From assembly GCF_029338295.1 (NCBI RefSeq), contig NZ_CP119793.1:1-64000 (forward strand): a DNA stretch of 64,000 nt, given 5' to 3'. The notes beneath the pieces were generated by a model. That model ran no database searches. It saw only the letters and a program-made list of their open reading frames with translations, and had not been told where the DNA came from. How positions within the stretch are numbered: the stretch's first letter is position 1; the number at the start of each line of letters is the position of its first letter. This DNA is from Haladaptatus sp. QDMS2. GTDB taxonomy: Archaea > Halobacteriota > Halobacteria > Halobacteriales > Halococcaceae. Both the position numbers and the translations under genes were made by a program. This document shows, piece by piece, positions 23,590-56,227 of the stretch.

Positions 23590-24633
23590 TCAAACGAAAC
23601 AACTCGCGGCGAGGAGAAAACTCCCTTGGCCGTACGAGGTGATACCAAGCGGCGCGAACGAACTCGCGGGTGGTTTCGCGACCCGTTGAACTGCCCCATC
23701 TTCCCGAACAGCGCCGATGCACGCATCCATCCCCTTCTCAGCAGCGGCTGCATACGGTGCTCCATCGAGAATACCCTCGTTGAGTGCTCGCTGAATCGTG
23801 TAGGTGAAAAATGCTGTGCCAGACAGTTCCAGCGGGGATTTCGTGTCGTCGACCCGTTGACGCCAGAAACCGGTGTCATCTTGATAGACCAGGAGACCGT
23901 CGACGACGCGCTCAAGAATCTCCCGCACCGTCTCTCGCTCGGAATGATCCTCCGGCAACAGCCCGAGTGTGTCAATAAGCCCAGCGGTCGCCCATCCAAC
24001 CCCACGACCCCAGTACTCACTCGCAGGATAGTAGTCGGGCGTCTCACGCCAAATATGCCGGAACAAGCCAGTATGCGGATCTTGAAGGTGCTTTGCGTGG
24101 ATTTTGATCTGGTGTACCGCATCCTCAACGGGTTCATCATTGTCGGTGAGCAGCCCGTACCGCACGTACCAGGGACAGAGGAAATAGAGAACCTCGGTGA
24201 ACAACTCGATTGGTCCATCGCGGCGGGAGATGCCACCATCTCGCGTACGGTCGACCGTTTCGAAGTACTCATACTGTTTTCGAACCGCATCGAGGTACCG
24301 TTCGTCGCCGGTTCGATCGTAAAACTCTAGGACGCTCGACGCCATCGACGCTGTGTTTGCTGTCGGGAAATACGACGATAGGTCGTATTTCGTCCATTCT
24401 CTCGACCGAGACTCCCTGAAAGAGGCTTGGTCGCCATACCCGTACGCCAGTTGACCAGCGCTTGTCTGTGTTTCTACCGCACTTTCCACGAGTTCGTGAG
24501 CCTCATCAATTCGGATTTCATTTGCGAGAAGTCCGTTCACAGCGGTCGCGCGCTCCCAACTTTCGTGTTCCATGTCACGGCTGACCGTGTACGCAGCAAC
24601 CCTGGTTATGATATCATCTAATGTTTGTGTCAT
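23590..24633 (-). CDS. GH105/GH88-like unsaturated uronyl hydrolase
   Basis: A 347-residue alpha/alpha-barrel protein of the unsaturated rhamnogalacturonyl/glucuronyl hydrolase type (YteR family). Supporting segments: YFPTANTASMASSVLEFYDRTGDERYLDA, DGGISRRDGPIELFTEVLYFLCPWYVRYG, HLQDPHTGLFRHIWRE, SEYWGRGVGWATAGLIDTL (highly typical), FWRQRVDDTKSPLELSGTAFFTYTIQRA, and the closing ITSYGQGSFLLAA. Such enzymes hydrate the 4,5-double bond of unsaturated uronic acids left by polysaccharide lyases, releasing a ketoacid sugar. No signal peptide is present, so it acts in the cytoplasm on imported oligosaccharides. It is divergent from the first large hydrolase at 24.9 kb, sharing a 270-base control region, and marks the start of the glycan locus. 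No polysaccharide lyase is visible in the window. Confidence 0.88.
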   Translation of the reverse strand: MTQTLDDIITRVAAYTVSRDMEHESWERATAVNGLLANEIRIDEAHELVESAVETQTSAGQLAYGYGDQASFRESRSREWTKYDLSSYFPTANTASMASSVLEFYDRTGDERYLDAVRKQYEYFETVDRTRDGGISRRDGPIELFTEVLYFLCPWYVRYGLLTDNDEPVEDAVHQIKIHAKHLQDPHTGLFRHIWRETPDYYPASEYWGRGVGWATAGLIDTLGLLPEDHSERETVREILERVVDGLLVYQDDTGFWRQRVDDTKSPLELSGTAFFTYTIQRALNEGILDGAPYAAAAEKGMDACIGAVREDGAVQRVAKPPASSFAPLGITSYGQGSFLLAASCFV

Positions 24634-24667
24634 GCTTTCACACGCCTACCATGTGATGTCTTCACAA

Positions 24668-24680
24668 TCGATTTATAACT
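24668..24680 (-). promoter_or_regulatory. TATA-like box in the divergent GH105/GH-A1 control region
   Basis: The plus-strand text cgatttataact reads as TTATAAATCG on the minus strand, about 35-45 bases before the GH105 start codon at 24633. The 270-base region between the two divergent start codons is the most likely place for shared regulation of the locus. No operator palindrome was recognised. Confidence 0.35.
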
Positions 24681-24903
24681 ACTGGTTCTTAGCTCGAGAT
24701 CTCTAACCAGCTGGGATATCCTGCCAGTCAATATCCGGTCGGCCTCATTCTTACCGAATCACCGAAGATACTGTCAACTGAACACGCCATATTCGTCGGA
24801 TTTTCACCCTTCATGGACGTTGTTTTCCAGTTATCCTCTTCGGACGCACATAGAGTTAAGAGACTTCGCGAGGGGCGTTCTAATGACAGAGGTCGACCTG
24901 CTA

Positions 24904-27057
24904 ATGTCCACGACTACTAGCCACGAACTCAGTATCGCGTATCGAACCAACTCTCCGCAACTCAGATTCGGCGTGAACGATCTCGTCGCTATCCTCGAAT
25001 GCCGCGCTGCGGTCACCCAAACCAACCTCGGTGATTTATCAAGAAATGATTCACCGAGCATCGTTCTCCTCGGAAACAGCGCGGATAGAGACCAGCTGGC
25101 GGAGCTGACCGATGAAACTCTCATTCCGTCGTCTCATGACCCAGAAGGGTATACGATTTCCCGGATTCGAATCGGCGATGAATCCACCCTTCTCGTTTCG
25201 GCGGCTGACGACACCGGCGGAATGTACGGGGCGTTGGACCTCTGCGAGCAGCTTCGAGCGGGGACAAAAATCGAGGAAATCCAGGAGAAAACGGCGACTC
25301 CGTCAGTCGAGTTCCGTGCGCTCAAATTCAACCTCCCCTGGTCACCCTACCGCGATGGTGAGCAGACGGAGATTCATTTTGAGACGTGTCGGGATCTCGA
25401 GTTCTGGCGTGCGTTCCTTGACATGATGGCGCGCAACCGGTTTAACGCGCTGACGCTGTGGAATCTCCACCCGTTTCCCTACATGATCAAACCCCACGCC
25501 TATCCGGAAGCCAGCCCGTTCACGGACGAGGAACTGGAGCGATGGCAGAACTTTTGGCACGAACTCTTTCGCATGGCGGCCAATCGCGGCGTCGAGACCT
25601 ACATCGTCAATTGGAATATCCACACTACACCCGAATTCGCCGAGGCCCACGGCGTACACCAGTACAACGATCCTGCAGATAAAATCAAAGAATACACGCG
25701 TGCGTGCGTCACGGAGGTACTAAACGAATACCCGAAGCTTACCGGTCTCGGGACGAGTGTCGCGAGTTGGACGGAGAACATGACGCCTGAAGCGAAGCAT
25801 ACCTGGCTTCAAGAGACGTTCGTAGAGGGAATCAAACGCGCCGACCGAGAAATTAAACTCCTCCACCGATCGATCAAATCGCAGGCACTCGATGAGATGC
25901 GGCGAGTAATCGAGGCTGAGGCGGCGCTCGATAACGTTTCGGAGGTGCTCGTTCCGTCGAAATTCAACTGGTCTCACGGCCACTCGACAACGAAACTCGC
26001 ACTCACGCATGATCACAAATCTGGAGACGTCGATAATCTGCTCTGGAATCCCCCACCCGATGACTATAGTGTGGTGTGGACGGTTCGTAACGAGGATTTC
26101 TTTGTGCTCCGGTGGGGTGATCCCGATTTCATCCGCGACCATATTCAGGCCAACCACGCCTCGAAATCCTACGTCGGCGGCTACATCATTGGCTCAGAAG
26201 GCTACATCCCCGCCAAAGATCTTTCTCATCGGGTGCACGAGCATCAGACGTGGCAGTACGCCTTCGAGAAACAGTGGCTGTTCTACTTATTGTGGGGGCG
26301 GTTGCTGTACGACCCATCCACCCCGGACGAGGTGTTTGAGCAGGCGTTCGAGACGCGGTATGGGCCAGGTCTCGGCGAACGGATGTTGGACGGATTTCGA
26401 TTGGGGAGTCAGATGCCAGAGGAGTTGGCGGCGTTTCACGCCGGCACCTGGGACTACACTCTCTACCCCGAGGGCTTTCTCGCTCCCATCGAAAATATGG
26501 GACTGGACGACGGCGTGTCCCCGTTCATCTCGATCAATGAACTCATCGACCACCAAACGCTCGACCCGGATTATCTGTCCATTCCTACCTACCTTGAGCG
26601 AGTCCTTGACGGCCAAGCTATCGAGGACCACCTTGTGACACCACTGGATGTTGCTGACCGAATGACCGACACCGGCGAGTCTGCGCTGGCCCTCGCCGAT
26701 TCACTCAAGCAAGAACGACCGGACGACGTGGGTGCGTTCGAATGCGAACTCTGTGACATCCGTACGTGGGGGCATCTGAGCCTCTACTTCGCCGAAAAGC
26801 TTCGTGCCGGTGTGGAATTCGAGACGTATCGAATGACAGGAATGAACCGATGGAAGACTGCAGTCGTCCACCTCGAAACTGCTGCCGATCATTGGGACGA
26901 AATCTGTGCTATCACCTCTGATCACTACCAACCTCTTCCCTACGCGACGGACCATTGGCCGGGACAAACCTTTGCGTGGGACCACTACCGAGATCAAGTA
27001 CAGCGCGACATTCAAATCGCTCGGAACACCCGGCCATACGACTATGAGATCCCGTAA
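24904..27057 (+). CDS. Large alpha-glucuronidase-like glycoside hydrolase, subfamily A, copy 1
   Basis: A 717-residue protein. The start ATG at 24904 (MSTTTSHELSIAYRTNSP) is chosen because the paralogue at 44.6 kb begins at the same place; the open frame upstream is not conserved. Residues 1-110 form an alpha/beta domain ending GGMYGALDLCEQL, like the N-terminal domains of GH67 and GH20-type enzymes. A TIM-barrel-like domain follows (RALKFNLPWSPYR, NRFNALTLWNLHPFPYM, VETYIVNWNIH, FNWSHGHSTT, DFFVLRWGDPDFIRDH, GGYIIGSEGYIPAKD), then a helical C-terminal domain. Several carboxylates in the barrel strands could be catalytic, but I cannot assign them. No signal peptide. Family membership is inferred from architecture; GH67-like alpha-glucuronidase activity is a hypothesis. 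Immediately upstream of the ABC sugar importer. Confidence 0.7.
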   Translation: MSTTTSHELSIAYRTNSPQLRFGVNDLVAILECRAAVTQTNLGDLSRNDSPSIVLLGNSADRDQLAELTDETLIPSSHDPEGYTISRIRIGDESTLLVSAADDTGGMYGALDLCEQLRAGTKIEEIQEKTATPSVEFRALKFNLPWSPYRDGEQTEIHFETCRDLEFWRAFLDMMARNRFNALTLWNLHPFPYMIKPHAYPEASPFTDEELERWQNFWHELFRMAANRGVETYIVNWNIHTTPEFAEAHGVHQYNDPADKIKEYTRACVTEVLNEYPKLTGLGTSVASWTENMTPEAKHTWLQETFVEGIKRADREIKLLHRSIKSQALDEMRRVIEAEAALDNVSEVLVPSKFNWSHGHSTTKLALTHDHKSGDVDNLLWNPPPDDYSVVWTVRNEDFFVLRWGDPDFIRDHIQANHASKSYVGGYIIGSEGYIPAKDLSHRVHEHQTWQYAFEKQWLFYLLWGRLLYDPSTPDEVFEQAFETRYGPGLGERMLDGFRLGSQMPEELAAFHAGTWDYTLYPEGFLAPIENMGLDDGVSPFISINELIDHQTLDPDYLSIPTYLERVLDGQAIEDHLVTPLDVADRMTDTGESALALADSLKQERPDDVGAFECELCDIRTWGHLSLYFAEKLRAGVEFETYRMTGMNRWKTAVVHLETAADHWDEICAITSDHYQPLPYATDHWPGQTFAWDHYRDQVQRDIQIARNTRPYDYEIP
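25366..25517 (+). repeat. 152-base block identical to 45004-45155
   Basis: This segment of the first subfamily A hydrolase gene is identical by eye to 45004-45155 in the second copy, starting at ACGGAGATTCATTTTGAG and ending at GCCTATCCGGAAGCCAGCCC. The sequence on both sides is clearly diverged. It encodes TEIHFETCRDLEFW through AYPEASP. Perfect identity at silent sites in one block suggests gene conversion. Confidence 0.85.
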
Positions 27058-27197
27058 TTAGCTGTAAAATAATCGGAACTGAGTTTATTCCTCGAAATTT
27101 GAATAGAAACTATATCGCAGCGCGGCTTATCGAATTATACTATTCAAGTACCTAGAGAAACACTTATGTGCGTATGTGACAGGTGTTGGCATGTACT

Positions 27198-28694
27198 ATG
27201 GCAGCAACTAGTGAACCCGCAGACTCTACTACGAGTCTCAACGAGGGCACCTCACGAAAGACAGACAGTGGATTAAAACGCCGGTCCGTACTATCGGCGG
27301 TTGCGACGGGCTTAGCAGCTGGATTGGCCGGCTGTACTGGCGGCGGCGGTGGCGGAACGACTGCGTCTAACGATGGCAAGGAGTTTTCGGGTGTTACGAT
27401 CAACGCGGCCGATATCGGCTACATCGGTCTGGGGCCGATAGCGAAGGACGCGATCAATAAGTGGGCCTCCCAGTTCGAGCAGGAGAAGGGGGCGTCGGTG
27501 AAATTCAACTTCCCGGAAAGCGAGACCTTGCTTACGTCCATTCAGTCAGGGGACATTCCGCATTTTTGGACGGGACACCCTGGCTTCCAAGGCCAGCTCC
27601 TCTCATCGGGCATTGTGCAAGGATACGAAAATGAGTTCCAGGATAAATTCCCTAATTTCCTTGATGGCGGACTCATGGATGTCAATCAAAGCCAGATTGA
27701 GTATATTTATTCTCAATGGGATGACGTCTACAATCTCATCATGACTTCAAAACCGTATGCTCCCTTTGCCGTGCGGATGGATCATATGGAAAGCGCTGGG
27801 TTGTCGGCGGATGACATGCCGACAAGCTATGAAGAGTTAATCGACGTTGCAACGCAACTTCGCGACGCAAACGATCAGAGTCTTGGGTGGCAATGTTACG
27901 CTGGTGGTTGTGACCTGCTCGACGTCTACGGGACACAGTGGCTGGCGGCCAACGGTGGAAACGAGGGCAAGGATGGATATAACTGGGGTGACGATTGGTC
28001 CGCAATCAACTGGCGGAATGATACGTGGACGGAATGGATCGGGAAGAACGTTGCTCTCTTCCAGGATCACAATCTCGGCGCCGAAAACACCCCGTCGATA
28101 TGTGACGAACCAGCCCTTCCAATGATTCTCGGTGGTGAACTGAGCATTATTCAGATGACCTCCGCTAATCACAAGCTCTTCATGGAGCAGGCGCCCGGTC
28201 TCCTGGAAGATGGGACGATACAGTACGCCGAACCCTGGGGCGGGTCGAACAACATCAAAGCGCACTTCCTCAACGACGGAGCGAACTTTGCGACCAAGCC
28301 ACAGGGGAAAGATCAGGCGACGTGGGACAAGTCTATCGAGGCGTCGTACGCGATGGTTAACTATGCGATTAACGAAACGCAGATTCTCAGTCACGACTTC
28401 CCGGCTGGACTCGCGTATCACCCCTCGTGGAAGGAACACTTCAACGCCATGCCCGAAGATGACTTCACTACGGCAGGCAACTGGCTTGAAGTCACGCAAA
28501 ACATGGTTCGGAATTCCGACGTTGCGTATGGATACGAAGCACATCCGCTTGAGGGCATTGCACCAGGAATTATTGGCCCTGCGCTCCAAGAAGCTTGGAA
28601 GGGTGAAGGTTCTGTAGAGGACGGGCTTGACAAGGCTGCGACGGAGATGGAGAACCACCTGAAACAGTCCAACGAACCGTGGAAGAACAACTAA
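27198..28694 (+). CDS. ABC transporter sugar-binding lipoprotein (CUT1 type)
   Basis: A 498-residue extracellular solute-binding protein. The N-terminus has a twin-arginine signal with lipobox (LKRRSVLSAVATGLAAGLAGC), followed by a glycine-rich linker, as typical for haloarchaeal lipoproteins sent out by the Tat system and anchored at the Cys. The mature part has the family 1 binding-protein text FSGVTINAADIGYIGLG, SIQSGDIPHFWTGHPGFQGQL, and PMILGGELSIIQMTSANHKLFMEQAPG. It delivers a sugar or oligosaccharide to the two permeases encoded directly downstream (73-base gap). Position right after the hydrolase gene suggests acidic oligosaccharides as cargo, but the ligand cannot be read from sequence. 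Start: ATG 27198, since the GTG at 27183 only adds five residues. Confidence 0.92.
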   Translation: MAATSEPADSTTSLNEGTSRKTDSGLKRRSVLSAVATGLAAGLAGCTGGGGGGTTASNDGKEFSGVTINAADIGYIGLGPIAKDAINKWASQFEQEKGASVKFNFPESETLLTSIQSGDIPHFWTGHPGFQGQLLSSGIVQGYENEFQDKFPNFLDGGLMDVNQSQIEYIYSQWDDVYNLIMTSKPYAPFAVRMDHMESAGLSADDMPTSYEELIDVATQLRDANDQSLGWQCYAGGCDLLDVYGTQWLAANGGNEGKDGYNWGDDWSAINWRNDTWTEWIGKNVALFQDHNLGAENTPSICDEPALPMILGGELSIIQMTSANHKLFMEQAPGLLEDGTIQYAEPWGGSNNIKAHFLNDGANFATKPQGKDQATWDKSIEASYAMVNYAINETQILSHDFPAGLAYHPSWKEHFNAMPEDDFTTAGNWLEVTQNMVRNSDVAYGYEAHPLEGIAPGIIGPALQEAWKGEGSVEDGLDKAATEMENHLKQSNEPWKNN

Positions 28695-28767
28695 GCCAGA
28701 GAATTCTACCCTCTTCCGCTTCGTACAGCAAACGAATAACACACATCATTCAACTAATATAAAAAGA

Positions 28768-29718
28768 ATGTCTGAAACAACAAAACACCTCAGCGCAGGT
28801 GAGACAGGGAACCTCTCACGTCTTGCCCGTGCGCGGGAAACGTATAAGGAGAATAAATTCGCATATCTCATGGTACTCCCGACAGTGTTGTACCTCTTGC
28901 TACTAGTCTGGTTCCCCTGGATGCAAGGACTTGTAATGAGCTTCTTCAATTGGCCGCTCTTCGGCCCCAAAACGTTCATTGGACTCGATAACTACACATA
29001 CCTTATCTCGTGGGAGGTGTTTCGTCAATCGCTTGTCGCTACCCTCATCTATGGGACCCAAACAATTGGCCACCTCTTACTGGGGACGATAATGGCGCTT
29101 ATCGTCTGGAAGCAGAAACGATTCGTCGGCGTTGTCAGTATCATCTTCCTCATCCCGTACGTGATTCCACCACTGGTAACGGGGACCTTGTTCAGTTACT
29201 TGCTCAACCCAAACGTTGGTCCGTTCTTCGAACTGATGACGGAATGGGGTATCCTCGCAAAACCAGTGTATTGGCTCTCTGATGACTTCTCTGCAATCGC
29301 CGTCGTAACTCTGGTTGGAGTATGGACTTGGGCACCGTTAGTCTTCCTGCTAGTCATCTCAGCGTTAGAAGGGATCCCAAAGCAGTACTACGAAGTTGCG
29401 GAGGTCTTCGGTGCAAACGTCTGGGAACGATTCCGCTACATCACGTTCCCCCAAATCAAAACGACACTCCTGATTGCACTCATCATTCGTATCATCTGGA
29501 ACCTCGGAAAAGTTTCTCAACCGTTCGTGATGACGAGAGGTGGTCCCGGCTATTCCACGTCGATGCTTGGCGTGCTAATCTATCGCTTGGCCTGGATACA
29601 GACTGACTTCGGGTTGGCGTTCGCCACCGGAGTCATCCTTAGTGTAATCTCTCTCGTCTTCATCTCTCTGTTCGTCTATAAGTTCGAACAAGAAGAAGGG
29701 GAGGTTTCGATAGCATGA
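28768..29718 (+). CDS. ABC transporter permease, MalF/UgpA-like
   Basis: A 316-residue membrane protein with about six transmembrane helices, the first being FAYLMVLPTVLYLLLLVWFP. The conserved cytoplasmic EAA loop that contacts the ATPase is present: EVAEVFGANVWERFRYITFPQIK. The C-terminal part has TRGGPGYSTSMLGVLIYRLA. It pairs with the next permease, whose ATG overlaps its TGA by four bases (ATGA), showing translational coupling. Together they form the membrane channel of a CUT1 sugar importer. Confidence 0.93.
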   Translation: MSETTKHLSAGETGNLSRLARARETYKENKFAYLMVLPTVLYLLLLVWFPWMQGLVMSFFNWPLFGPKTFIGLDNYTYLISWEVFRQSLVATLIYGTQTIGHLLLGTIMALIVWKQKRFVGVVSIIFLIPYVIPPLVTGTLFSYLLNPNVGPFFELMTEWGILAKPVYWLSDDFSAIAVVTLVGVWTWAPLVFLLVISALEGIPKQYYEVAEVFGANVWERFRYITFPQIKTTLLIALIIRIIWNLGKVSQPFVMTRGGPGYSTSMLGVLIYRLAWIQTDFGLAFATGVILSVISLVFISLFVYKFEQEEGEVSIA

Positions 29719-32041: not shown

Positions 32042-32124
32042 ATTCTCTCGTTGAGTGCTTGTATTCCAACCCAGCTCGACTCGACAAAGCTTAGTTCGGG
32101 GGAGATTTTTATTGTCGCGCTATA

Positions 32125-32604
32125 ATGTACTACATGACCATGGACAATGATCTACAATCAGTCTTTTCTGAACGCGAAAAACCGCCGAGAGACGTGGTTG
32201 AGTCGGAGCCAAAGTACTGGTACGCACTGGCTGCATTTCTTGCTGCGACCCTTTTCAGCATCATTTACATCGCCGTCGTAACTCGAATTGGAGGACAATC
32301 CGCCATCAGTGGCTCGTTTCTGAACCTCTGGCTGATTGGACTGGTCGTCCTCGCGGTTTTATCATACCCAGCCCTGTTCAAGGACACTGCATTCATTCGA
32401 AAGACAGTCGTCGGGTGGAATCCGAAGTCGTGGTCCGCTATTGTGTTTGGCTTCACACTGCCACTAGTCGTATTCACGGCAAGCCTCATCTGGTATCATC
32501 CCTCCGTCAGCGTGCTACTAGGCATTCTCTCGTTTATCATCACCACTTTCCTCACGATGGGTTTCCACTTATACCGGCGTCATAGCTACATCGGCAATCC
32601 CTGA
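32125..32604 (+). CDS. Small integral membrane protein, unknown function
   Basis: About 159 residues (ATGs at 32125, 32134 and 32140 are all possible starts). A charged N-terminus of about 30 residues is followed by four hydrophobic helices: YALAAFLAATLFSIIYIAVV, FLNLWLIGLVVLAVLSYPAL, SAIVFGFTLPLVVFTASLIWY and VLLGILSFIITTFLTMGFHLY. I recognise no family. It is encoded just after the ABC ATPase and before another small membrane protein and a dehydratase, so it may be an accessory of the sugar-uptake system. Confidence 0.7.
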   Translation: MYYMTMDNDLQSVFSEREKPPRDVVESEPKYWYALAAFLAATLFSIIYIAVVTRIGGQSAISGSFLNLWLIGLVVLAVLSYPALFKDTAFIRKTVVGWNPKSWSAIVFGFTLPLVVFTASLIWYHPSVSVLLGILSFIITTFLTMGFHLYRRHSYIGNP

Positions 32605-32655
32605 ATTGGTCGAATCAACGAAAATCATTTGAACACTCCTCTACGTTGTACACGT

Positions 32656-32931: not shown

Positions 32932-32949
32932 GTTCCCTCCCGGTGATAC

Positions 32950-32958: not shown

Positions 32959-32985
32959 GACTCGTCCTAAAAGTCAGTGTGTCAG

Positions 32986-34110: not shown

Positions 34111-34179
34111 GTATGCTTCACGACGCACCTCACTGTGGCGCACTATCGGGGGAAATTTTAAGGTGTGGTCGGTCTCCTT

Positions 34180-38918: not shown

Positions 38919-39027
38919 TCTCACTCTTCTTCGAATCGATATAAGCGTATCCATCGATCAGGCCTGCTGTCATTGAAAACAAGATGGTTCCGTGAGCCGA
39001 GGAGCTCGTCGTGGGATTACAATCGAC

Positions 39028-41655: not shown

Positions 41656-41872
41656 TATGGGCGTCCTCACCTTTCGATGTATCCCATCCTCAATAAGCAT
41701 GTGGGTGGGGGTTGTCCTTTGCCGTCCTCTCAGGGTTCGGACCAAATTTTGAGCGAATCCAGTTCGCCCATCGCTCAGCAAGATAGAGAGGCCACTCACG
41801 CTGGACCGACGGGTGTCCGTCTATAAATTATCGTGACCATGCCAAACTGTATCATGTTCCTCATTCACAATA

Positions 41873-46776: not shown

Positions 46777-47574
46777 TCAGGGGCCAGTGACCACAGCGCT
46801 GGTTAATACACTGACCCGATCGGTCACACGGAACGCCGGTGTCTCAACTACAAGAACGGACCGGTCATTGATGTCGGAGAAGCGGAAGTCGAGTTCGAAC
46901 GTCCCGTCGTTGCTGATCGGGGCCACTTCGACCTGCCCGGTGGGCAGATGACGCACCCAAGCCAGTTCACCCGCAAACTGTTGTGGAGTCTGCCCTTGGA
47001 TGCCACGAAGCAGCGGTCGCGCTTCGACCTGGGTGCCAGCCATTGGGTATTCCAACCCTTGCCATTCCCAGAACCCTTCGTCGATGACGTACACGTTCTC
47101 GTACCCGTCGCTGATGAGTGACGCGGCGCGAATTGACGCCATCGTGTGCGGACAACCACAGTAGCAAACGATACGGTCGGCTTTCGGCCATTGTACGACT
47201 GGGTCGGCGTCGCGACCGTCGGGTGCGGGGCTCCAAACTGCGCCGAAGATGCGCGAGCGCTCCCACGCAATCTCTGGACGCGCATCGACGAACCGCGCTT
47301 CCCCGCGCGTGTACCAGTAGTAGACGTCTTCGATCGGGGCGAGCGGAACATCGATGCCTTCCCGGTCGAGGGTATCGTACGAATTGACGTTGATGGTGCG
47401 TTCTTCGTGCGTGGATGAAAACTGGGGTGGGTAGCCATCATCGGGCGTCTGGTCGTCGGGTAGGTCGTCGCCGTTGGTGGGAGGTGATCCCTGAGCACCT
47501 GATTCGAGGCACCCGGCGAGAAAGCACAGAGAGGTCCCGATAAGAGATAGCGCTGAACGACGATTCACATTCAT
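46777..47574 (-). CDS. Rhodanese-domain lipoprotein
   Basis: A 265-residue protein starting MNVNRRSALSLIGTSLCFLAGC, a short Tat-like (RR) signal with a lipobox ending at Cys22. The open frame upstream of 47574 is not protein-like and overlaps the divergent lyase promoter. After an acidic Pro/Asp-rich linker comes a rhodanese-like domain: VDARPEIAWERSRIFGAVWSP (the first conserved Asp), CYCGCPHTMASIRAASLI (the active-site loop with Cys residues) and YVIDEGFWEWQGLEYPM. The final 90 residues hold a small beta-rich region (FAGELAWVRHLPTGQVEVAPI). Rhodaneses transfer sulfane sulfur, but outside the cell the role is unclear. It lies between the second subfamily A hydrolase and the lyase gene, convergent with the former. 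Confidence 0.8.
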   Translation of the reverse strand: MNVNRRSALSLIGTSLCFLAGCLESGAQGSPPTNGDDLPDDQTPDDGYPPQFSSTHEERTINVNSYDTLDREGIDVPLAPIEDVYYWYTRGEARFVDARPEIAWERSRIFGAVWSPAPDGRDADPVVQWPKADRIVCYCGCPHTMASIRAASLISDGYENVYVIDEGFWEWQGLEYPMAGTQVEARPLLRGIQGQTPQQFAGELAWVRHLPTGQVEVAPISNDGTFELDFRFSDINDRSVLVVETPAFRVTDRVSVLTSAVVTGP

Positions 47575-47689
47575 CAGTACTCTATTTGTAGGAAAAACCG
47601 TATAAAGGCTTCGTGCACCTGCCGGATCCGAATTGCTTGTCTGGTGAGAGGATAGGCTTATCGTGGTTGCGGTTCGTGTTTCGTTCGGA

Positions 47690-49177
47690 ATGACGAGAGA
47701 CATGTTCTCGAGTCGGCTTGGAGAACCACCTGCGAACGCTCATCTGGAGTACTACCGCGTCCCGAAGTTCAAAGAAAAGATGGCCTTTCTCTGGGACTCT
47801 CTCTTGGCTCTCAATCGAGCGCAAGCAATCGTGTTGAATGAGGTTGGTATCCTTGAGTCTCGAGAGGTTTCCGAGGTTTTAGCGGTGCTCACTGACCTCG
47901 AATCGGTTGATCCCGATGAGTTTGAGTCGTATGCGGAGTTTGGAGGACCGTATCTGTTCATCGAAAACCGCGTTATTGAGGAACTTGGCCCTGCCGTCGG
48001 GGGGAAGCTCCATACGGGCAGAAGTCGAAACGATTTGTTCAGTGCGACGTTGAGAGTCGCTGTGCGCGAGCAGATTCTCGAGATCATTGGTGCGACGCTT
48101 ACTCTTCGCGAGCAACTGCTCGCTCGGGCTGCGGAAACTACCGAGGTCGTGTTTCCGGCGTACACGCACAGTCAGCCGGCACAACCGATCACGTTTGCAC
48201 ATTATCTCCTCGGGTTCGACCATTTGATCGGGCGAGACGTCGAAAGGCTCTGCCGGGCGTTCGCGGAGACGAACCGAAGTCCCTTGGGGGCGGCGGCGAT
48301 TGGCGGGACTGGATTCCCGCTTAACCGAGAGCGACTCGCCGAACTCTCCGGGTTTGACGGACTGGTTGTGAACACGTACGATGCTATCGCCTCGGTCGAT
48401 TATCTTCCCGAAACGACGGCGGCGGTCGCGTTACTGATGACGAACATCAGCCGGATGTCCCAGGATCTGCTCGTCTGGAGCATGTTTGAACTCGGTTTTG
48501 TCGAGTTGAGTAATACAATGTCAACCACCAGTAGCATTATGCCTCAGAAGAAAAACCCTGGCGTCCTCGAAAAGACGCGGGCGTATGCAAACGAGTCCAT
48601 TGGCCAGGCGAACAGTACGCTCATTTCACTGAAAGCGGTTCCGTACGGGGATGTCGGAGAGACGACGTATCTCGCGTATCCATTTCTTGGAGCGGCCTCG
48701 AATGCCGCCGATGCGATTCACCTCTTTGCTGCGGTCATCGACGACATTCAGCTTAATGACCAGCGGATGTATCAGGTTGCCCAGGACAGCTTCTGTACAA
48801 TGACCGAACTTGCGGACACGCTCGTCCGAGCAGCGGGTCTCTCCTTTCGGCAGGCACACGAAGTCGTCAGCACACTCGTTCGCGCTGTTTACGAGGACGG
48901 ACGCCACGCTGGTCAAATCACTCTTTCCGACCTTGAGACGGCTGCTTCGATCACTGTGGGAAAGTCGGGGCTCCTGACCAATGAAGCTCTGGTGGAGGCA
49001 CTTGATCCGCAAACGAACGTCACCCGTCGGGACATTCTCGGCGGAACCGCTCCGAAACAAAATCACGACGATCTGTCTCGACAGCGCGCGCTTCTGGATG
49101 AACAGACGACCTGGTTCCACAAGACTCGCGACAGGCTCGCCGCGGCGAAGGATGCACGAGCAACCGTGGACCGATAA
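47690..49177 (+). CDS. Argininosuccinate-lyase-like enzyme (fumarase/aspartase superfamily)
   Basis: A 495-residue protein (ATG at 47690; a GTG at 47663 adds nine residues). Superfamily segments: GGKLHTGRSRNDLFSATLRV (first conserved region), TEVVFPAYTHSQPAQPITFAHYL (His and Thr region), and the lyase signature TTSSIMPQKKNPGVLEK, which holds the catalytic Ser loop. The sequence is longer than ordinary ArgH and its N-terminus is not typical, so it could be a paralogue with another substrate, such as the EDDS-lyase-type enzymes that cleave a C-N bond to give fumarate. No other arginine-biosynthesis gene is nearby, which argues against a housekeeping ArgH. Within a sugar-acid locus its role is open. 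Confidence 0.82.
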   Translation: MTRDMFSSRLGEPPANAHLEYYRVPKFKEKMAFLWDSLLALNRAQAIVLNEVGILESREVSEVLAVLTDLESVDPDEFESYAEFGGPYLFIENRVIEELGPAVGGKLHTGRSRNDLFSATLRVAVREQILEIIGATLTLREQLLARAAETTEVVFPAYTHSQPAQPITFAHYLLGFDHLIGRDVERLCRAFAETNRSPLGAAAIGGTGFPLNRERLAELSGFDGLVVNTYDAIASVDYLPETTAAVALLMTNISRMSQDLLVWSMFELGFVELSNTMSTTSSIMPQKKNPGVLEKTRAYANESIGQANSTLISLKAVPYGDVGETTYLAYPFLGAASNAADAIHLFAAVIDDIQLNDQRMYQVAQDSFCTMTELADTLVRAAGLSFRQAHEVVSTLVRAVYEDGRHAGQITLSDLETAASITVGKSGLLTNEALVEALDPQTNVTRRDILGGTAPKQNHDDLSRQRALLDEQTTWFHKTRDRLAAAKDARATVDR

Positions 49178-49333
49178 TCCTCTTGTACCGATATTCGCAC
49201 TCCAGCGAACGAAGTCGGTTCTCGTGGAATCGGCTGAATTCGAACGAACCACACGCTGTTTTTCCACACGAGGCTACTGCGTGCTACTCTTGTCACTCGT
49301 GGCCCTGAATTCAGATGCTGGCGTGTGTGGAAG

Positions 49334-50488
49334 TTAGCTGAGCATGTTTTCAACAATGACTGTGTCAGTGCCGCGCTTTTGAATCTCCGACTCAGTAATT
49401 TCGACGTGCTTGATCGCACTTCGACGGTACTCGTACGCGAGATGGAGTGTGCCATCACGAGCCTGAATGACGTTCCCGTAGGTGAACTCCGGTCGTCCCA
49501 CCTGGTCCATCTCGCCTAGTTGGAGTCTGTGAGATGCACGAAGATCAGAGCTCACCCCCTCTGGATCGTGTTCATCTTCGAGAGCGGCCTGTTCGAGAAA
49601 TAGTTGATACGGCCACGTCTCGCCCTCGTCTTCGGACATGAACAACGCTAGCTTGTTGCGCCCCTCTGGAATTGTTCCATGGTCTACTCCTGTGGAGGGA
49701 TTGTTCACGAGAACGAGATTTCCCTCGTCGGTACGAACCATATCAAAGGCGGCATTCGGATTAGGAATCGCCGTTTGGGTTGCTCGCGTCCAGTTCAACC
49801 CACGGTCGGTCGAGCGCGTCTCGTGAATGTAGCCACCCTGTCGGGGTCGAAGATATGCAAGGAGACTTCCGTCTGATAGCTCCACCACCGTCGGATGGGT
49901 CAGCCCGGAGTTACCCATGTATCCCCCCGCCTCATAGTGAGTAATCTGGTCACCGCCGACCAGTTGCGGGAAGTCAGCGGGGCGTTCCGCGTAATCTCCC
50001 GGGATGAGATAGAAGTACGGTTTTTCGTCGATAGCGTCGTAGGCGGGCAGTATCCACCGATTCTCGTCCTCCAGAACGAGCGGTTTGTTCTTCAAATACA
50101 TCCCGGTCTTCTCATGAAGCAGCTCGAGATCTTTCCACGTCTCGCCTTCATCCGGGGAGCGCTTGAAGAATACTTTGGACGAGGTAAGCCAATTGCCGTA
50201 CATCACTGGTGCTGTCACCCATAGCTTATCGTCCGGCCCGTGGAAGAGGACGGGACATCCGACAGCACGGCCCTCAACGTCAGCCCAGCATTCCGCGTCT
50301 TCCCATTCAGTCGAGTCGGCTGGCAGCCGACTTCCGTAGACGTTCTGGTCGCGATTTCCCTCACCGACACCGCCTGCGAACCATCCAGCGAGAAGGTCAC
50401 CGTTCGCCAGTTCGTAGATGGTGGCGTTCTTGTGAAAGGTATTCCCGTTCGCACAGCTGTCCATTTGACAGATCAGTCTCTCGATCAT
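49334..50488 (-). CDS. BNR-repeat beta-propeller protein (sialidase-like)
   Basis: A 384-residue six-bladed propeller-type protein (ATG 50488; a GTG precedes it by one codon). Asp-box-like repeats are visible: S-P-D-E-G-E-T-W-K-D (FKRSPDEGETWKDL), S-T-D-R-G-L-N-W (RSTDRGLNWTRA) and S-E-D-E-G-E-T-W (FMSEDEGETWPYQ), each S-x-D-x-G-x-x-W. Other typical text: HKNATIYELANGDLLAGWFAGG, SGLTHPTVVELSDGSLLAYLRP. These repeats fit the BNR_2 sialidase/neuraminidase superfamily. Catalytic Arg and Tyr/Glu residues of true sialidases cannot be confirmed, and similar propellers include rhamnose/glucuronate lyases and other polysaccharide-acting proteins. No signal peptide seen. It is convergent with the lyase gene. 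Confidence 0.8.
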   Translation of the reverse strand: MIERLICQMDSCANGNTFHKNATIYELANGDLLAGWFAGGVGEGNRDQNVYGSRLPADSTEWEDAECWADVEGRAVGCPVLFHGPDDKLWVTAPVMYGNWLTSSKVFFKRSPDEGETWKDLELLHEKTGMYLKNKPLVLEDENRWILPAYDAIDEKPYFYLIPGDYAERPADFPQLVGGDQITHYEAGGYMGNSGLTHPTVVELSDGSLLAYLRPRQGGYIHETRSTDRGLNWTRATQTAIPNPNAAFDMVRTDEGNLVLVNNPSTGVDHGTIPEGRNKLALFMSEDEGETWPYQLFLEQAALEDEHDPEGVSSDLRASHRLQLGEMDQVGRPEFTYGNVIQARDGTLHLAYEYRRSAIKHVEITESEIQKRGTDTVIVENMLS

Positions 50489-50634
50489 CACTTGAAGTTG
50501 TTTTGACGGTGTGAGAATAAGTCTTCGCCAAGCACCACAAATTATGGGTCTACCGGATGTAGAACATCCATCGCCGTCGTTTATGAATCACGAGAATTCG
50601 AAGACATCACGAATGCGGTTCTCGCAACTCGATT

Positions 50635-53265
50635 TTATCCGGCTGAATCCACTTTCACGACGTAGTATGGCATGGGTTCGTCAGCGTGATACAGACCTGG
50701 GATCAGGAGTCCGTTTCCTCCCTCGTCGACGGTTGCGAAGTAGGCCAGAATATCCCACTCTGGGGTGACATAGTCACTGGGAATAGTCGCACGATATCCG
50801 CCGTCGATTCGTTCCATAACGATCTCCCGGAATGGGCCCTCTGTCTGGTCGGTGTGACGGTAATGGAGGACGAGGTCATTGTGAGTGTTGAGCTCGCCAA
50901 TCTCAATCGCGATGTCAATCGGCTCACCGATTTGCGCTCGATCCGGAATCGAGACATCGAACGAGGGAAGTGCGAACGTTGCCCGACCTGCTGTCGGAAG
51001 GTCGGCTGGTGCCGTGTCAAGATCGACGCCCTCATCGTCGGCGAGTTCTTCGAGTTTTCGAAGATCGGCGTCCATCTCCACGAGACGGTCACCCCACTGT
51101 CCAGAGTCTGCCGTAGCGGCACCGCGGACGAACACGAGGTCGTCGTGATAGGTTCCCTCGCCGCGTGCGGCCAGTGTCCCCCACGACTCCCGCGCTCGTT
51201 CGGCCGCGCAGTACGCAGCATGGAGCTGCGCTGCGTCTCCGGTTTCGTCGAACAGCGTTAGGGCGACGGCGGCATCGGTCTTGTGTGCGTGGTATTCAGC
51301 GAGGTCGGCGAGCATCAACAAGTCGAGTTTCGTTGCCTGATACTCGCCGCTGGCATGTCCTGTTTTTTCAGCGGCTTCGACGGCGTCGCGCGTCTCGGTG
51401 GCCAGCCGCCGATACCAGTTACGTACCTGTGGTGGCGTATACTTCCCGCGGAGGGTGTCGTTGAGGGTGTCGTGGACGTACTCGCTGATGCCATAGAATA
51501 AACCTGGGTCGCTCGGTTCTGTAGTGGCGTACGTCACGTCCTCAAATGCACGGTTAAAGTTGTGTTCGGCAAACAGTGCCCCACCAGTGTCCATCTCTGC
51601 CCAATTGACCGTTCCAGGATGGCGGGTGAGGTGGGCGGCGGTCAGAAGCGGGAGAATCTTGCTCGCGCTCCGATACCCCTTCTGGATCGCGTCGGCCGCC
51701 TCACCGAACCGTTGAGTGAATGCGCGTTCCCAGACCGCAGAGTCCGTCTCCGTCGAATACCCGAGCCGCCCGAACATGAGATACCACGCCCAGTACCGTT
51801 CGTCTTCCCACTCGTAGTGTTCGAGAGACTCATCCTCGAACAACGGCCATGCCTCAGTTTGAAGGGAAGAATGGCCACCCTTGTGCGTTAGCGGGGCGGT
51901 GACCTCAAAGCCGGTCGCCCCGCCGAACTGGGTGCTGTGGGCGAACCGGCGAGCATAATCCGGATCCCCCCATAAGAAAATCCGATTCGTGCCCATCACC
52001 CAGAGGCGGTACAGGAGACGGAAAGACTGGGGTCTGCGTAGCATATCCCCGTAACTGTATCGACGACTATAATTGAAATTGTCAAGGCGGGCGAGTTCCC
52101 CGGATCGCATCTGGGTGTTGTGATGGGGGAGCCCCGTCGACTCACACCAATACTTGGTTGCAACGGTCACGTCGAGCCCGGTTTCGAGCGCCCACTGGAT
52201 CATTTCGTCGGTCAGGCCCTTTGCGCGCAGATCCAGCGAGATATCGCGGCCAGATTCGTCTGCCGCTTCGCCTGTGGCACGAATTAGTTCGCGCCAGAAT
52301 TCTTCTGCAGTATCCATATCTCCGAAGCCGGATTCGTAGTTGACGCGGAGTTGAATTCCATCGATTTCTGGGCACTCAAGGAGCATTTTGTGGAGTCCTT
52401 GCGCGCAGTAGTCAGTGAACGATTCAGCCTCGGTTGGCAATTGCTCGACCATCGGGTCGTATGTATCGGTTGTATATTTCGTGGTCAACCGATCTGCCAG
52501 GGTCATCTCGGGATTACTTTCCCATGCCATCTGCGACCAGATCCCGAAAATGAATTCCAGGCCGTATTGCGCACATAAACCCCCGATTGTTCGAACCATC
52601 GATTGAAAGTCTTCGCGCGAGTAACCCACGTCGTCGGTGAGGGTTACCTCCGGATACTCGGGAATATCGACGAGGAATGGATATGGGGGCGACATGAATG
52701 ACGTGTCGTACCCGGTGATCAGTGCAAATCGGTTGAATCGGCAGCTGGCTAATTGTCCGAGATAGTAATGCCAGAATTCCTCCGAGAAGAACCACTCATC
52801 GTGGACTGGTCCGGTGACAAATTTATCGATCCCACGCACTTCGTTCTCTGGAAACTCGATCTGGTTTTCGACCGCTTCGAGTGCCTCTAAGCCGGAATCT
52901 GTGACTCGGTTGGCGACTTCGAGGAGCGAGTACATCAGTCCACGCTCGTCTGTTCCGGCTATCACGAGTACACGCAACGCGCCAGCCGTACACCACCAAG
53001 TTATGACTCCCTCTGGGTCCTTGCGAACTTCAACGCCGTCTGTCGTGAGGAGGTGGTGTATTACCTCATCGTCCGTTGTCCCGATGGCCAAACAGAACTC
53101 GTCAGCTTCGGTCCAGTGACGGAGTGAATTGATGGAACACCCTTGGTCAGTTAGAGCTGAGTTGAGTTCGCGGGTGGCGAATTCCACTGGCCCGGTGTCA
53201 CCGTCTGGAGTTCGGTGGCGGTTTACAATGTCGATACTGGCGTTGGATGTTGATACGTTGGCCAT
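50635..53265 (-). CDS. Large alpha-glucuronidase-like hydrolase, subfamily B, copy 3
   Basis: An 876-residue paralogue of the two genes at 36.3 and 39.0 kb; the ATG at 53265 (MANVSTSNASIDIVNRHRT) gives the same length as copy 1. It retains EVRGIDKFVTGPVHDEW, FNRFALITGYDTSFMSPPYP, EFIFGIWSQMAWE, GIQLRVNYESGFGDMDTAEEFW, VATKYWCESTGLPHHNTQM, NRIFLWGDPDYARRFAHSTQ, the helical domain and LHYRHTDQTEGPF. The most divergent copy, especially in the N-terminal 140 residues (HHLLTTDGVEVRKDPEGVITWW). Conserved throughout are the barrel-strand residues, so they are likely active-site residues. It is alone in its orientation, convergent with nothing and divergent from the MFS copy 2. Confidence 0.7.
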   Translation of the reverse strand: MANVSTSNASIDIVNRHRTPDGDTGPVEFATRELNSALTDQGCSINSLRHWTEADEFCLAIGTTDDEVIHHLLTTDGVEVRKDPEGVITWWCTAGALRVLVIAGTDERGLMYSLLEVANRVTDSGLEALEAVENQIEFPENEVRGIDKFVTGPVHDEWFFSEEFWHYYLGQLASCRFNRFALITGYDTSFMSPPYPFLVDIPEYPEVTLTDDVGYSREDFQSMVRTIGGLCAQYGLEFIFGIWSQMAWESNPEMTLADRLTTKYTTDTYDPMVEQLPTEAESFTDYCAQGLHKMLLECPEIDGIQLRVNYESGFGDMDTAEEFWRELIRATGEAADESGRDISLDLRAKGLTDEMIQWALETGLDVTVATKYWCESTGLPHHNTQMRSGELARLDNFNYSRRYSYGDMLRRPQSFRLLYRLWVMGTNRIFLWGDPDYARRFAHSTQFGGATGFEVTAPLTHKGGHSSLQTEAWPLFEDESLEHYEWEDERYWAWYLMFGRLGYSTETDSAVWERAFTQRFGEAADAIQKGYRSASKILPLLTAAHLTRHPGTVNWAEMDTGGALFAEHNFNRAFEDVTYATTEPSDPGLFYGISEYVHDTLNDTLRGKYTPPQVRNWYRRLATETRDAVEAAEKTGHASGEYQATKLDLLMLADLAEYHAHKTDAAVALTLFDETGDAAQLHAAYCAAERARESWGTLAARGEGTYHDDLVFVRGAATADSGQWGDRLVEMDADLRKLEELADDEGVDLDTAPADLPTAGRATFALPSFDVSIPDRAQIGEPIDIAIEIGELNTHNDLVLHYRHTDQTEGPFREIVMERIDGGYRATIPSDYVTPEWDILAYFATVDEGGNGLLIPGLYHADEPMPYYVVKVDSAG

Positions 53266-53548
53266 ATCTGTAGCTACCCCGTGGGTACTTCTGACCTCGG
53301 AAGGAAGTAGCATAAATCCACACGTTTGCACCCCTGAGCGAAGCGAATTTGGAGGTGGTTGCTGATGCGTACAGGTGTCAAGCCTCGCTACGGAGACAGC
53401 GTTGAGAGTGATCTACACTGACTGGTGAGAACGAAAGTCCCTGACGCGCCCGTTTTGTTCCCGCTTTTGCCGTAGCGACCTTGTTAACCCGGTTAAAGTG
53501 GCCGGTTTCAGTGTGTTAAGTATTGTCAGCACCAAATCAAACTATTAA

Positions 53549-54829
53549 GTGACACACACCGAGACGCACTACACCCCGCTCAAGCTATTCAAAAATCTTG
53601 AGTTTGTAGCGATAGCGAGTGTCAACTTCGCCCAGGGAATTAGTTTTGCGACGATAATCATTGCACTGGCGCTGTATGCCGATATTTTCCAAATATCCGG
53701 CCTCATTGCTGGTCTATTCGGGACCGCATATGCGGTGGTTCGACTTGTGTTAGTCCTCCCATTGGGAAAGTACATCGACGTGGGAGACTCGAAACGGTAT
53801 CTGTTAATCGGACTCCTGATTCAAGTTCTGGTGCTAGTGGGTTATACGAATGTCCAGTCGTTTGAACACGTCATTTTACTTCGAGCTATTCAGGGCGGTG
53901 GCTCGATTATTTTGATTCTCACTGGGCTTTCCGTCGTCGGTGATATCTGTCCAGACGAACAACGCGGACTCTGGTTAGGCACGTACAGCCAAGTCACTGC
54001 GTTGTCGAGTCTGTCGGGTGACCTTGTGGGTGGATTCTTACTATTCACGTATGGATTTTCGACGACATACGTTGTACTGACAGTTGTTACACTGCTAACC
54101 GCCGTCGCTGTATTCATGTTCCTTCCGTCAGATCCAGGGGGACACACGGAACTCTCGAGGGAATTCGGCCTTGGCGCTCTTCGAATGCTCATCAGTCGGA
54201 AGGCCATTCAGGCACTCGTGATGTTCCGGTTTACGTTTAGCTTTGCCAAGACCGCGATTGTTTTGTTTCTCCCCATCTACGCGCATACAGAATTCGGGAT
54301 GAGCGCACTTCTCATCGGCGGCATCCTGGCCGGGGGGAAATTTACTAAAGCCGTTTCACAGGGGTATGTCGGTACGATCGCCGATCGAATCGGCCAACTC
54401 CACTTGTTCGTCGTTGCGGGAACAATTCTCTATGCTATCGGTATCGCAGCTATCCCGCTCGCAGCAGACGCAGACCGACTGTTCGAGCCGGCAACGGTTT
54501 CATTCTGGCATCAGTCGATAACGCTTACGCCGTCCTTCTTTGTCTTGTTTCTCGTGTACTCGGTTCTCGGCGTCGCGGACAGTTTACGACTTCCGACCAG
54601 TCTCACCATGTTCGTCGAAGAAGGCCAATACTATCGAGCGGTCGCCAGTAGCCTTTCTTTACGTTCGATGTCCTGGCAAATTGGCGCCATTTTTGGCCCG
54701 CTCATCGTTGGTGGTTTGGTTGACGTGACCTCATTTACAGTCGCATTTTCCATCGCTGCAGTGATTACGCTGCTCTCGGTGGTCTTGTTCCTCCTATTGT
54801 ATTCATTACAACCACCGCCGGAGGCCTAA
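53549..54829 (+). CDS. MFS transporter, copy 2
   Basis: A 426-residue permease starting at GTG 53549 (THTETHYTPLKLFKNLEF). It is a paralogue of the transporter at 43.2 kb, with the loop motif PLGKYIDVGDSKRY and many shared segments. It is followed 261 bases later by an enolase-superfamily gene, repeating the MFS/dehydratase pairing seen at 41.9-44.5 kb in the reverse order. It probably carries a related acidic sugar or oligosaccharide. Confidence 0.85.
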   Translation: MTHTETHYTPLKLFKNLEFVAIASVNFAQGISFATIIIALALYADIFQISGLIAGLFGTAYAVVRLVLVLPLGKYIDVGDSKRYLLIGLLIQVLVLVGYTNVQSFEHVILLRAIQGGGSIILILTGLSVVGDICPDEQRGLWLGTYSQVTALSSLSGDLVGGFLLFTYGFSTTYVVLTVVTLLTAVAVFMFLPSDPGGHTELSREFGLGALRMLISRKAIQALVMFRFTFSFAKTAIVLFLPIYAHTEFGMSALLIGGILAGGKFTKAVSQGYVGTIADRIGQLHLFVVAGTILYAIGIAAIPLAADADRLFEPATVSFWHQSITLTPSFFVLFLVYSVLGVADSLRLPTSLTMFVEEGQYYRAVASSLSLRSMSWQIGAIFGPLIVGGLVDVTSFTVAFSIAAVITLLSVVLFLLLYSLQPPPEA

Positions 54830-55090
54830 GACCAGAGGCGAAGCTTTCCGATTTCAATTCAAAGAAAAATCTCAATCAGTATCGGTTAGTCGTATTTCGT
54901 CATGGACAGCTGTGGGAACGTGATCAAGATTTCAGGAAAACTCGGTCGAATAATGGTTCGTGTTTGTAATATTAAGAAGCGGAAACTTGAATCCTGGAGG
55001 GCAGTCCCCGTTTATTGCTTCTTGAGCTCGTTTGCGGCCATATCTTCATGGATATATAGATGTATCTCGGTTACTGTTCTCCATTGTGCT

Positions 55091-56227
55091 ATGCAGGTAG
55101 AACGCGTAGAAGCAATTCCACTTAAGCGAGAGCTCGACCACCGTTTTGCGAATGCACAAAAATGGATCTCCAGTCGTGAGTATTGTCTTGTTCGCATCAC
55201 GACAGCGGACGGAACAAGTGGGTGGGGTGAGTGCTGGGGGCCAATCGCTGGGAATCGTGAGATTATCGACACCGTTGTTGCGCCATGGCTTATAGGCCAG
55301 GATATTCGTACTGTGGAATCAATTCATGACGAATTACGATATCTACTTACTACGAAGTATCATTCGTTTTGTCCTGCGAGTGTCGTCAGTGGCATTGATA
55401 TTGCACTGTGGGATCTTTATGGCAAGTCGACCGGGCAGTCCGTCTCCTGCCTTTTGGGTGGTCGAGTTCGGGATGAAATCCAAGCTTATGCGACGGGCCA
55501 CTTCTGGCCGCCAGTCGATGACTTTGAAGAGCTTCGTGAAGCCGTGGTTTCCGAAGCCGAGCATCATGTTCGCTCGGGTTTCGACGCGCTGAAGAACAAA
55601 ATTGGGCTTGCTCGGAATTTGGGGTGGGGGCCGGAGAAAGATGTCGAACTCGTCGGTGCAATACGAGAGGCGGTCGGTGACGATGTGCGGTTGATGGCTG
55701 ATGCCAACCACGCATACGATGTTGCGGATGCTATCCGCGTTGCAGAGGCGCTTACCGAATTTGACGTCTACTTTCTCGAAGAACCTATACCTCCAGAACA
55801 TATCGATCAGTACGCGCGTGTGAATCGGCATACTTCTGTCTCGCTTGCAGGTGGTGAGTGCTGGGCCTTTGCAAACGAGTTCGATCGTGTCCTAGATGCG
55901 GGAGCGGTGGATTACGTCCAGCCGGATGTGACGAGCGCGGGTGGTGTCACATCGACTCGCCGAATTATTACTGCGGCCGAGGCGCAAAACGTGCAACCGC
56001 TCCCCCACGTATTTGGAAGTGCTGTCGCTCTTGCGGCCAGTTTGCAACTGCTCTCGACGGTTCGCGGTGCACCAATGCTGGAGTTTGACCGAACCCCAAA
56101 CCCATTGCGCGATAATCTTATTGACCGTCCAATCTCCAATGATGGGAATACGGTTGTGATCCCCGATACGCCGGGAATTGGAATCGAAATTGATGAATCT
56201 GTGCTTGAAGAATATCGAATTGATTGA
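55091..56227 (+). CDS. Enolase-superfamily enzyme with K-x-K motif, copy near 55 kb
   Basis: A 378-residue mandelate racemase-type enzyme. The open frame reaches to 54902 but the start MQVERVEAIPLKRELDHRFANA at 55091 fits family N-termini, and a TATA-like atatata segment lies about 35-40 bases before it. Features: YCLVRITTADGTSGWGECWG, SGIDIALWDLYGKSTGQSVSCLLGG, ALKNKIGLARNLGWGPE (Lys-x-Lys with an insert), LMADANHAYD (metal Asp), YFLEEPIPPEH (metal Glu), LAGGECWAFANEF (third ligand), and PHVFGSAVALAASLQL (dyad His). The pattern resembles sugar-acid or muconate-lactonizing members; substrate unknown. Confidence 0.85.
   Translation: MQVERVEAIPLKRELDHRFANAQKWISSREYCLVRITTADGTSGWGECWGPIAGNREIIDTVVAPWLIGQDIRTVESIHDELRYLLTTKYHSFCPASVVSGIDIALWDLYGKSTGQSVSCLLGGRVRDEIQAYATGHFWPPVDDFEELREAVVSEAEHHVRSGFDALKNKIGLARNLGWGPEKDVELVGAIREAVGDDVRLMADANHAYDVADAIRVAEALTEFDVYFLEEPIPPEHIDQYARVNRHTSVSLAGGECWAFANEFDRVLDAGAVDYVQPDVTSAGGVTSTRRIITAAEAQNVQPLPHVFGSAVALAASLQLLSTVRGAPMLEFDRTPNPLRDNLIDRPISNDGNTVVIPDTPGIGIEIDESVLEEYRID

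Follow-up and report, generated by a model that had tools for sequence, protein, structure and literature searches.

What could a haloarchaeon do with five large, related hydrolase-like proteins that are encoded among sugar transporters and putative sugar-acid dehydratases? The question is raised by a locus at positions 23590-56227 of the window, the 64 kb stretch of DNA analyzed here, which is the first 64 kb of contig NZ_CP119793.1 (C3) in the 3.88 Mb genome of the haloarchaeon Haladaptatus sp. QDMS2. A first-pass annotation made from the letters alone had listed in this locus a GH105-type hydrolase, the five large proteins, an ATP-binding cassette (ABC) importer, two MFS transporters, four enolase-superfamily proteins, an ArgH-like lyase and a BNR propeller, all of which are where it placed them, and had proposed that they process an acidic glycan; the transporters and dehydratases fit such a role. 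Our analysis suggests, with a probability of about 0.6, that this is a plasmid-borne locus resembling a polysaccharide utilization locus (PUL) for uronic-acid-containing oligosaccharides, which would be imported, trimmed in the cytosol by three of the large proteins (subfamily G2) and passed on to sugar-acid dehydration. We regard the locus as real, coherent and partly new and this reading of it as likely; the earlier interpretation as a whole is partly supported. The other two large proteins form subfamily G1.

Five large proteins and their relation to GH138

The description of the five large proteins as related hydrolases holds in so far as they have a glycosidase fold with uronide-related affinities, to GH138 first and to GH67 next. 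They are, however, of two subfamilies, G1 (genes starting at 24820 and 44566; 65% identical) and G2 (36288, 39028 and 50635; 61-79% identical), with ~22% identity between the groups, and the G1 pair lacks at least one catalytic glutamate. Profile searches, which the first-pass annotation had proposed as a check, gave nothing above the Pfam cut-offs (two sub-threshold GH67N matches were seen, in G1), and the sole NCBIfam family match for all five was NF049878, alpha-D-galacturonidase. This glycosidase-related match had E values of 1e-14 to 1e-40 and scores of 53-72 bits for G2 and 137-138 bits for G1, none reaching the curated cut-off of 1300, while a true GH138 protein from Spirosoma validum scored 1563 bits. 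A PDB sequence search with the large proteins led to BPa0997 (PDB 6hze/6hzf/6hzg), the GH138 alpha-galacturonidase of rhamnogalacturonan II (RG-II) chain A. BT0997 is a GH138 member as well.

AlphaFold models were built on homologue alignments, one for each subfamily: G1a (predicted local distance difference test, pLDDT, 86.6; predicted template modelling score, pTM, 0.90) and G2b (84.9 and 0.88). For both models the best Foldseek match was 6hzg (E 3e-31 and 6e-28) and the top five PDB matches were GH138 (template modelling scores 0.58-0.80), the common fold extending over ~700 residues at 14-19% identity; GH67 alpha-glucuronidase was the second-best match for both, and a much weaker one (E ~1e-11 to 1e-15, 11-12% identity); likeness to the GH67/GH115 alpha-glucuronidases was seen in this match and in the weak GH67N ones. 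In a quick tree of 77 rows with some long branches, which included BPa0997 and the S. validum GH138, the GH138, G1 and G2 proteins formed three separate clades with Shimodaira-Hasegawa-like approximate likelihood ratio test (SH-aLRT) values of 100, 97 and 100. Because of these separate clades and of scores far below the 1300-bit cut-off, G1 and G2 are, as judged from sequences and models, relatives of GH138 and not members of it. They would constitute two GH138-related families so far without names, and the locus is therefore partly new. Its genes, together with one related gene outside it, are the following.

23590-24633, - strand: GH105 (YteR-like) unsaturated uronyl hydrolase family protein, divergent from G1a; PF07470 9.9e-55; YteR 1nc5 4e-29; catalytic Asp replaced by Glu (D143 to E)
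24820-27057, + strand: G1a, GH138-related, subfamily G1; NF049878 8e-40, 137 of 1300 bits; Ser at both catalytic Glu positions (316, 385); Foldseek 6hzg E 3e-31
27183-28694, + strand: solute-binding lipoprotein of the ABC importer (twin-arginine translocation (Tat)/lipobox N-terminus); SBP_bac_1
28768-29718, + strand: ABC permease 1; PF00528
29715-30551, + strand: ABC permease 2; PF00528
30848-32041, + strand: MalK-type ABC ATPase; ABC_tran, OB_MalK and TOBE_2
32125-32604, + strand: small membrane protein by hydropathy, no family; no Pfam match
32977-34110, + strand: MR1, MR_MLE enolase-superfamily; nearest to talarate/galactarate dehydratase, below cut-off
34494-35720, - strand: MR2, MR_MLE; nearest to gluconate/galactonate dehydratase, below cut-off
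36288-38954, - strand: G2a, GH138-related, subfamily G2; NF049878 3.6e-20; both catalytic Glu present
39028-41799, - strand: G2b, GH138-related, subfamily G2; E338/E414 correspond to GH138 E294/E361; pLDDT 84.9; Foldseek 6hzg E 6e-28
41900-43027, + strand: MR3, MR_MLE; 55-60% identical homologues beside G2 (mostly with G1) in Bacilli; PDB 3tcs 5e-132
43186-44475, + strand: MFS transporter 1; PF07690
44566-46695, + strand: G1b, GH138-related, subfamily G1; NF049878 2.6e-40; Asp at 316 and Ser at 385 (G1a numbering)
46777-47703, - strand: rhodanese-domain protein, probably a Tat-type lipoprotein by its N-terminus; PF00581
47663-49177, + strand: ArgH-family lyase paralogue; TIGR00838 358 bits, chromosomal argH 471
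49334-50491, - strand: BNR_2 sialidase-like beta-propeller, no signal; PF13088 4.5e-45; weak PDB sialidase matches, 1e-5
50635-53331, - strand: G2c, GH138-related, subfamily G2; NF049878 1.9e-14; both catalytic Glu present
53549-54829, + strand: MFS transporter 2, paralogue of MFS transporter 1; PF07690; 65% DNA identity over 477 bp
54902-56227, + strand: MR4, MR_MLE; nearest to arabinonate and gluconate/galactonate dehydratases, below cut-off; the gene probably starts further downstream
10895-12040, - strand (outside the locus): MR0, galactonate dehydratase; PRK14017 335 bits, cut-off 311

The two subfamilies differ in their catalytic residues. A profile alignment of 91 G2 sequences with BPa0997 matches G2 E338 to GH138 E294 and E414 to E361, and both glutamates are invariant (91/91). 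We take E294 and E361 of BPa0997 to be the GH138 catalytic pair; the PDB titles include an E361S mutant of GH138. In G1 the position of E361 (385) is Ser in 20 and Ala in 11 sequences, that is, 31/31 are without Glu, and the position of E294 (316) is Glu in 26, Asp in four (G1b and three from Spirosoma) and Ser in G1a alone. G2 thus has both catalytic glutamates and G1 does not. The G1 residues are the same in Haladaptatus sp. DYSN1, so the losses cannot be put down to sequencing error in a single assembly, and nine other residues are invariant in G1 (Lys169, His217, Arg256, Asn266, Arg350, Lys381, Arg423, Asp426 and Arg431), which argues that the family is constrained rather than merely in decay. 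Since at least one GH138 catalytic Glu is gone, hydrolysis by G1 would not be assured. G1 thus offers a natural case of a glycosidase relative that has lost a catalytic Glu and is still linked to its partner across several phyla. As to their history, the tandem genes G2a and G2b (36288-41799, - strand) are 81% identical in DNA, the mark of a fairly recent duplication; further paralogous pairs are G1a/G1b, at 75%, and the MFS genes, at 65%.

Distribution and genomic company of G1 and G2

Relatives of G2 occur in at least 212 loci of the genome collection, mostly bacterial, and were labelled 'hypothetical protein' in the annotated records inspected. We kept 80 of these loci, all from other genomes, for taxonomy and neighborhood counts; they span Acidobacteriota, Bacteroidota, Planctomycetota, Verrucomicrobiota, Bacillota, Pseudomonadota, Actinomycetota, Chloroflexota and haloarchaea. 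Among Halobacteria, a G1/G2 match was present in 2 of 392 sampled genomes, including the window's own. The named haloarchaeal carriers (Natronoglomus, Halovivax and Salinarchaeum) and the window form one G2 clade, and the nearest rows are from Bacillota (Halanaerobiaceae, Oscillospiraceae), a placement that fits a putative transfer of G2 from bacteria to haloarchaea.

What most strongly suggests that G1 and G2 work on a glycan is that they recur together with sugar importers and SusCD. A G1 gene lies within 10 kb in 15 of the 80 G2 loci (Bacilli, Bacteroidota and Planctomycetota), when chance proximity would be expected in ~1% of loci, given that a genome of 5-8 Mb holds one to a few G1 genes, the six Spirosoma loci among the data being non-independent; an MR_MLE gene is present in 12/80, in several phyla. 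Loci in Bacilli show a recurrent combination of G1, G2 and an ABC importer; MR3 and an AraC-type sensor are added in several of them, and a Rieske protein, an Amidohydro_2 protein and a GHL6 hydrolase in some. Spirosoma loci combine SusC/SusD with exported G1/G2 and a PD40 propeller, and G2 accompanies ABC importers on rhizobial and Marinovum plasmids, in some cases together with MR_MLE. Thus, G1 and G2 are probably partners in glycan use. Through the link of G2 to the GH138 fold, with the catalytic pair preserved, a large number of genes of unknown function, carried by haloarchaea, Acidobacteriota, Bacteroidota, Bacilli and rhizobia, become directly testable as uronidases.

The Spirosoma G1 type nearest to the G1 of the window has as neighbors SusC/SusD, a GMC oxidoreductase, a Gluconate_2-dh3 subunit and a GHL6-cluster protein, which suggests an oxidised-sugar pathway. 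A 3-keto-glycoside pathway for G1, considered from the GMC and Gluconate_2-dh3 neighbors, was set aside when literature searches yielded nothing usable.

A proposed pathway and its alternatives

In the pathway that we favor, short acidic oligosaccharides would enter the cytoplasm through the ABC importer and possibly also through the MFS carriers. Digestion would be cytosolic because the importer lipoprotein is present and the hydrolases have no signal: a crude hydropathy scan found no signal peptide on any of the five large proteins, which bears out the earlier view that the hydrolases lack export signals and work mainly inside the cell. The three G2 proteins would be exo-acting alpha-uronidases that use E338 and E414, with galacturonic or glucuronic acid in alpha linkage as the likeliest target, and G1, their conserved partner, would share their substrate but act on it by a modified chemistry. 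GH105 would remove the unsaturated uronyl ends of imported lyase or dehydratase products made elsewhere, and the MR_MLE enzymes would dehydrate the freed sugar acids or their reduced or oxidised forms. The locus has an importer and intracellular enzymes and no exported depolymerase, which is less than the full definition of a PUL. In general kind it resembles the plasmid-borne glycosaminoglycan (GAG) locus of ~46 kb, with an ABC importer and GH88, described from haloarchaea able to use hyaluronate and chondroitin for growth (PMC13260240). Those loci resemble the window in being PUL-like, on a plasmid and of similar size, with an ABC importer and a cytosolic GH88-type enzyme; they differ in carrying an exported PL8 lyase, a sulfatase and GH154, none of which was seen in the window locus, which has instead five GH138-like and several MR_MLE genes.

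The assignment of the GH105-type protein stands at the level of family, given the PF07470 domain and YteR, an unsaturated rhamnogalacturonyl hydrolase, as the closest PDB sequence (4e-29). Its role is another matter, as the position of YteR Asp143 is Glu in the window protein and in one homologue and Asp in YteR and the other 16 of 17 homologues, and the position of YteR His132 is Arg. Because Glu replaces the catalytic Asp, the activity of this protein appears uncertain. The same GH105 type is present in 41 of 392 haloarchaeal genomes, and a check of 16 bacterial and haloarchaeal genomes with G1 or G2, not all of them in one piece, turned up no GH105 gene that shared a contig with G1/G2 and lay within ~25 kb of them. 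We therefore rejected GH105 and G1 as a general pair, and GH105 would seem to be a local addition to the locus.

The first-pass annotation had also noted that a lyase making the GH105 substrate was missing. Profiles for PL1 (PF00544), PL22 (PF14583) and RG-I lyase (PF18370) found none in the genome, other PL families not having been searched, and the BNR protein, considered as a beta-propeller lyase, gave weak sialidase matches in the PDB (1e-5) and nothing else. A lyase is not strictly needed, however, since in ulvan use an oligosaccharide dehydratase converts saturated uronide ends to the GH105 substrate (PMC8511951), and since the lyase products of other organisms may be taken up. That ulvan dehydratase, P29_PDnc, in which D248N, R230E and K303I abolish activity (PMC8511951), is a mechanistic parallel only.

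For the sugar acids, four MR_MLE genes lie in the locus and a fifth, MR0, at 10895-12040. All five have the N and C domains and the invariant late-barrel His (H289 of MR0); MR0 alone exceeds the cut-off of a curated named dehydratase (galactonate dehydratase), MR1-MR4 being below all cut-offs, and it is possibly a downstream enzyme outside the locus. The window also encodes two aldo/keto reductases and an HpcH/HpaI-type aldolase, and we infer that the route in PMC5488244 would use such enzymes. An isomerase route for uronate was rejected, as UxaC is absent.

Several observations weigh against the proposed pathway. The absence of UxaC means that uronate would have to enter by another, hypothetical route. 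The literature searched held no tested activity for any G1 or G2 member, and 14-19% identity to GH138 in the fold matches makes the transfer of its substrate weak. GH105 lacks its usual catalytic Asp and is not near G1/G2 in the 16 other genomes. MR3 relatives in Ruegeria and Shinella lie among aminotransferases and aldehyde dehydrogenases, without G1/G2, so that some genes of the locus may deal with other small acids. Finally, haloarchaea with uronide enzymes failed to grow on alginate and, in strains that carried PL1, PL11, PL22, PL26 and GH28 genes, on pectin, polygalacturonate and rhamnogalacturonan (PMC9726719). The locus may help to explain such enzymes without growth on pectin, in that imported oligosaccharides are perhaps used.

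A variant of the pathway, which does not exclude it and which we put forward tentatively, is that the same enzymes of the locus serve to recycle glycans rich in uronic acids that haloarchaea make themselves (S-layer N-glycans, exopolysaccharide) and not plant or algal pectin. Haloarchaeal glycans with hexuronic acids are established, and a locus with no secreted depolymerase fits short oligosaccharides. The failure of haloarchaeal enrichments on pectin and alginate, whose authors propose an unknown activity for the uronide enzymes (PMC9726719), points the same way, whereas the many G1/G2 relatives in soil, rhizosphere and plant-associated bacteria point to plant material as the ancestral substrate.

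It is also conceivable, though we find it doubtful, that a GH138-like/ABC module has been joined by chance to a small-acid module (MFS, MR_MLE, ArgH-like and rhodanese genes), with no single pathway. MR3 relatives without G1/G2 in Halomontanus and Haladaptatus halobius, as well as in Ruegeria and Shinella, are consistent with such a mosaic, as is an ArgH-like relative in a peptide-ABC/CoA-transferase operon elsewhere, and we know of no glycan role for the rhodanese lipoprotein. On the other hand, MR3 adjoins G2 (mostly with G1) in five genomes of Bacilli, at 55-60% identity, and MR_MLE genes accompany G2 in several phyla. The ArgH-like protein itself passes TIGR00838 (358 bits, cut-off 279.5), and since the chromosomal argH scores better (471 bits) the locus copy is unlikely to be required for biosynthesis. 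Its closest PDB matches are 6g3d-6g3i, deposited as argininosuccinate lyase, which we take to be EDDS lyase.

The idea that G1 is an eliminating enzyme on a GH138 scaffold (a uronyl dehydratase or keto-glycoside lyase with catalysis rebuilt after the Glu loss) that feeds GH105, so that the missing lyase would be G1a, draws on the Ser/Ala at the E361 position, the Ser of G1a at 316 and the nine invariant residues, on the divergent adjacency of G1a and GH105, on the dehydratase that feeds GH105 in ulvan use (PMC8511951) and on the oxidoreductase and gluconate-dehydrogenase-type subunit beside one Spirosoma G1 type, but we consider it very improbable given that GH105 is not near G1 in the other genomes checked, that an acidic residue at 316 in 30/31 G1 sequences is compatible with a modified glycosidase and that direct evidence of elimination is nil.

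Replicon and flanking genes

The end of contig C3 (316000-330897) repeats window positions 11053-25958 at 99.93% identity, which makes C3 an untrimmed circular Haladaptatus plasmid of ~305 kb. The window matches plasmid NZ_CP120471.1 of strain DYSN1 at 99.8% identity over 50 kb, and its positions 36000-56300 match NZ_CP119784.1 of strain YSMS36, also at 99.8%. Genes for orc1/cdc6 and ParA lie on the DYSN1 plasmid, as does an integrase gene that adjoins the locus there. What looked like a sixth copy of G1 and another GH105 (C3:328545-330895) was rejected as an artefact of the circular overlap; this second GH105 copy is frameshifted and the sixth G1 is cut off.

Among the other genes, the rhodanese-domain protein has a Tat/lipobox-like N-terminus (NRRSALSLIGTSLCFLAGC), and its gene overlaps the start of the ArgH-like frame. 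An FAD-linked oxidase/Fe-S gene at 5457-8524 (- strand) is split into two overlapping frames and is a single intact coding sequence in the DYSN1 record, and therefore a frameshift or sequencing error is present in the window. Two thermosome (group II chaperonin) genes at 19373-22829 (- strand) adjoin the locus on the plasmid. On its other flank, 57325-63991 (- strand) holds a short-chain acid module of acyl-CoA synthetase, MaoC, thiolase with an OB-fold partner and a short-chain fatty acid transporter.

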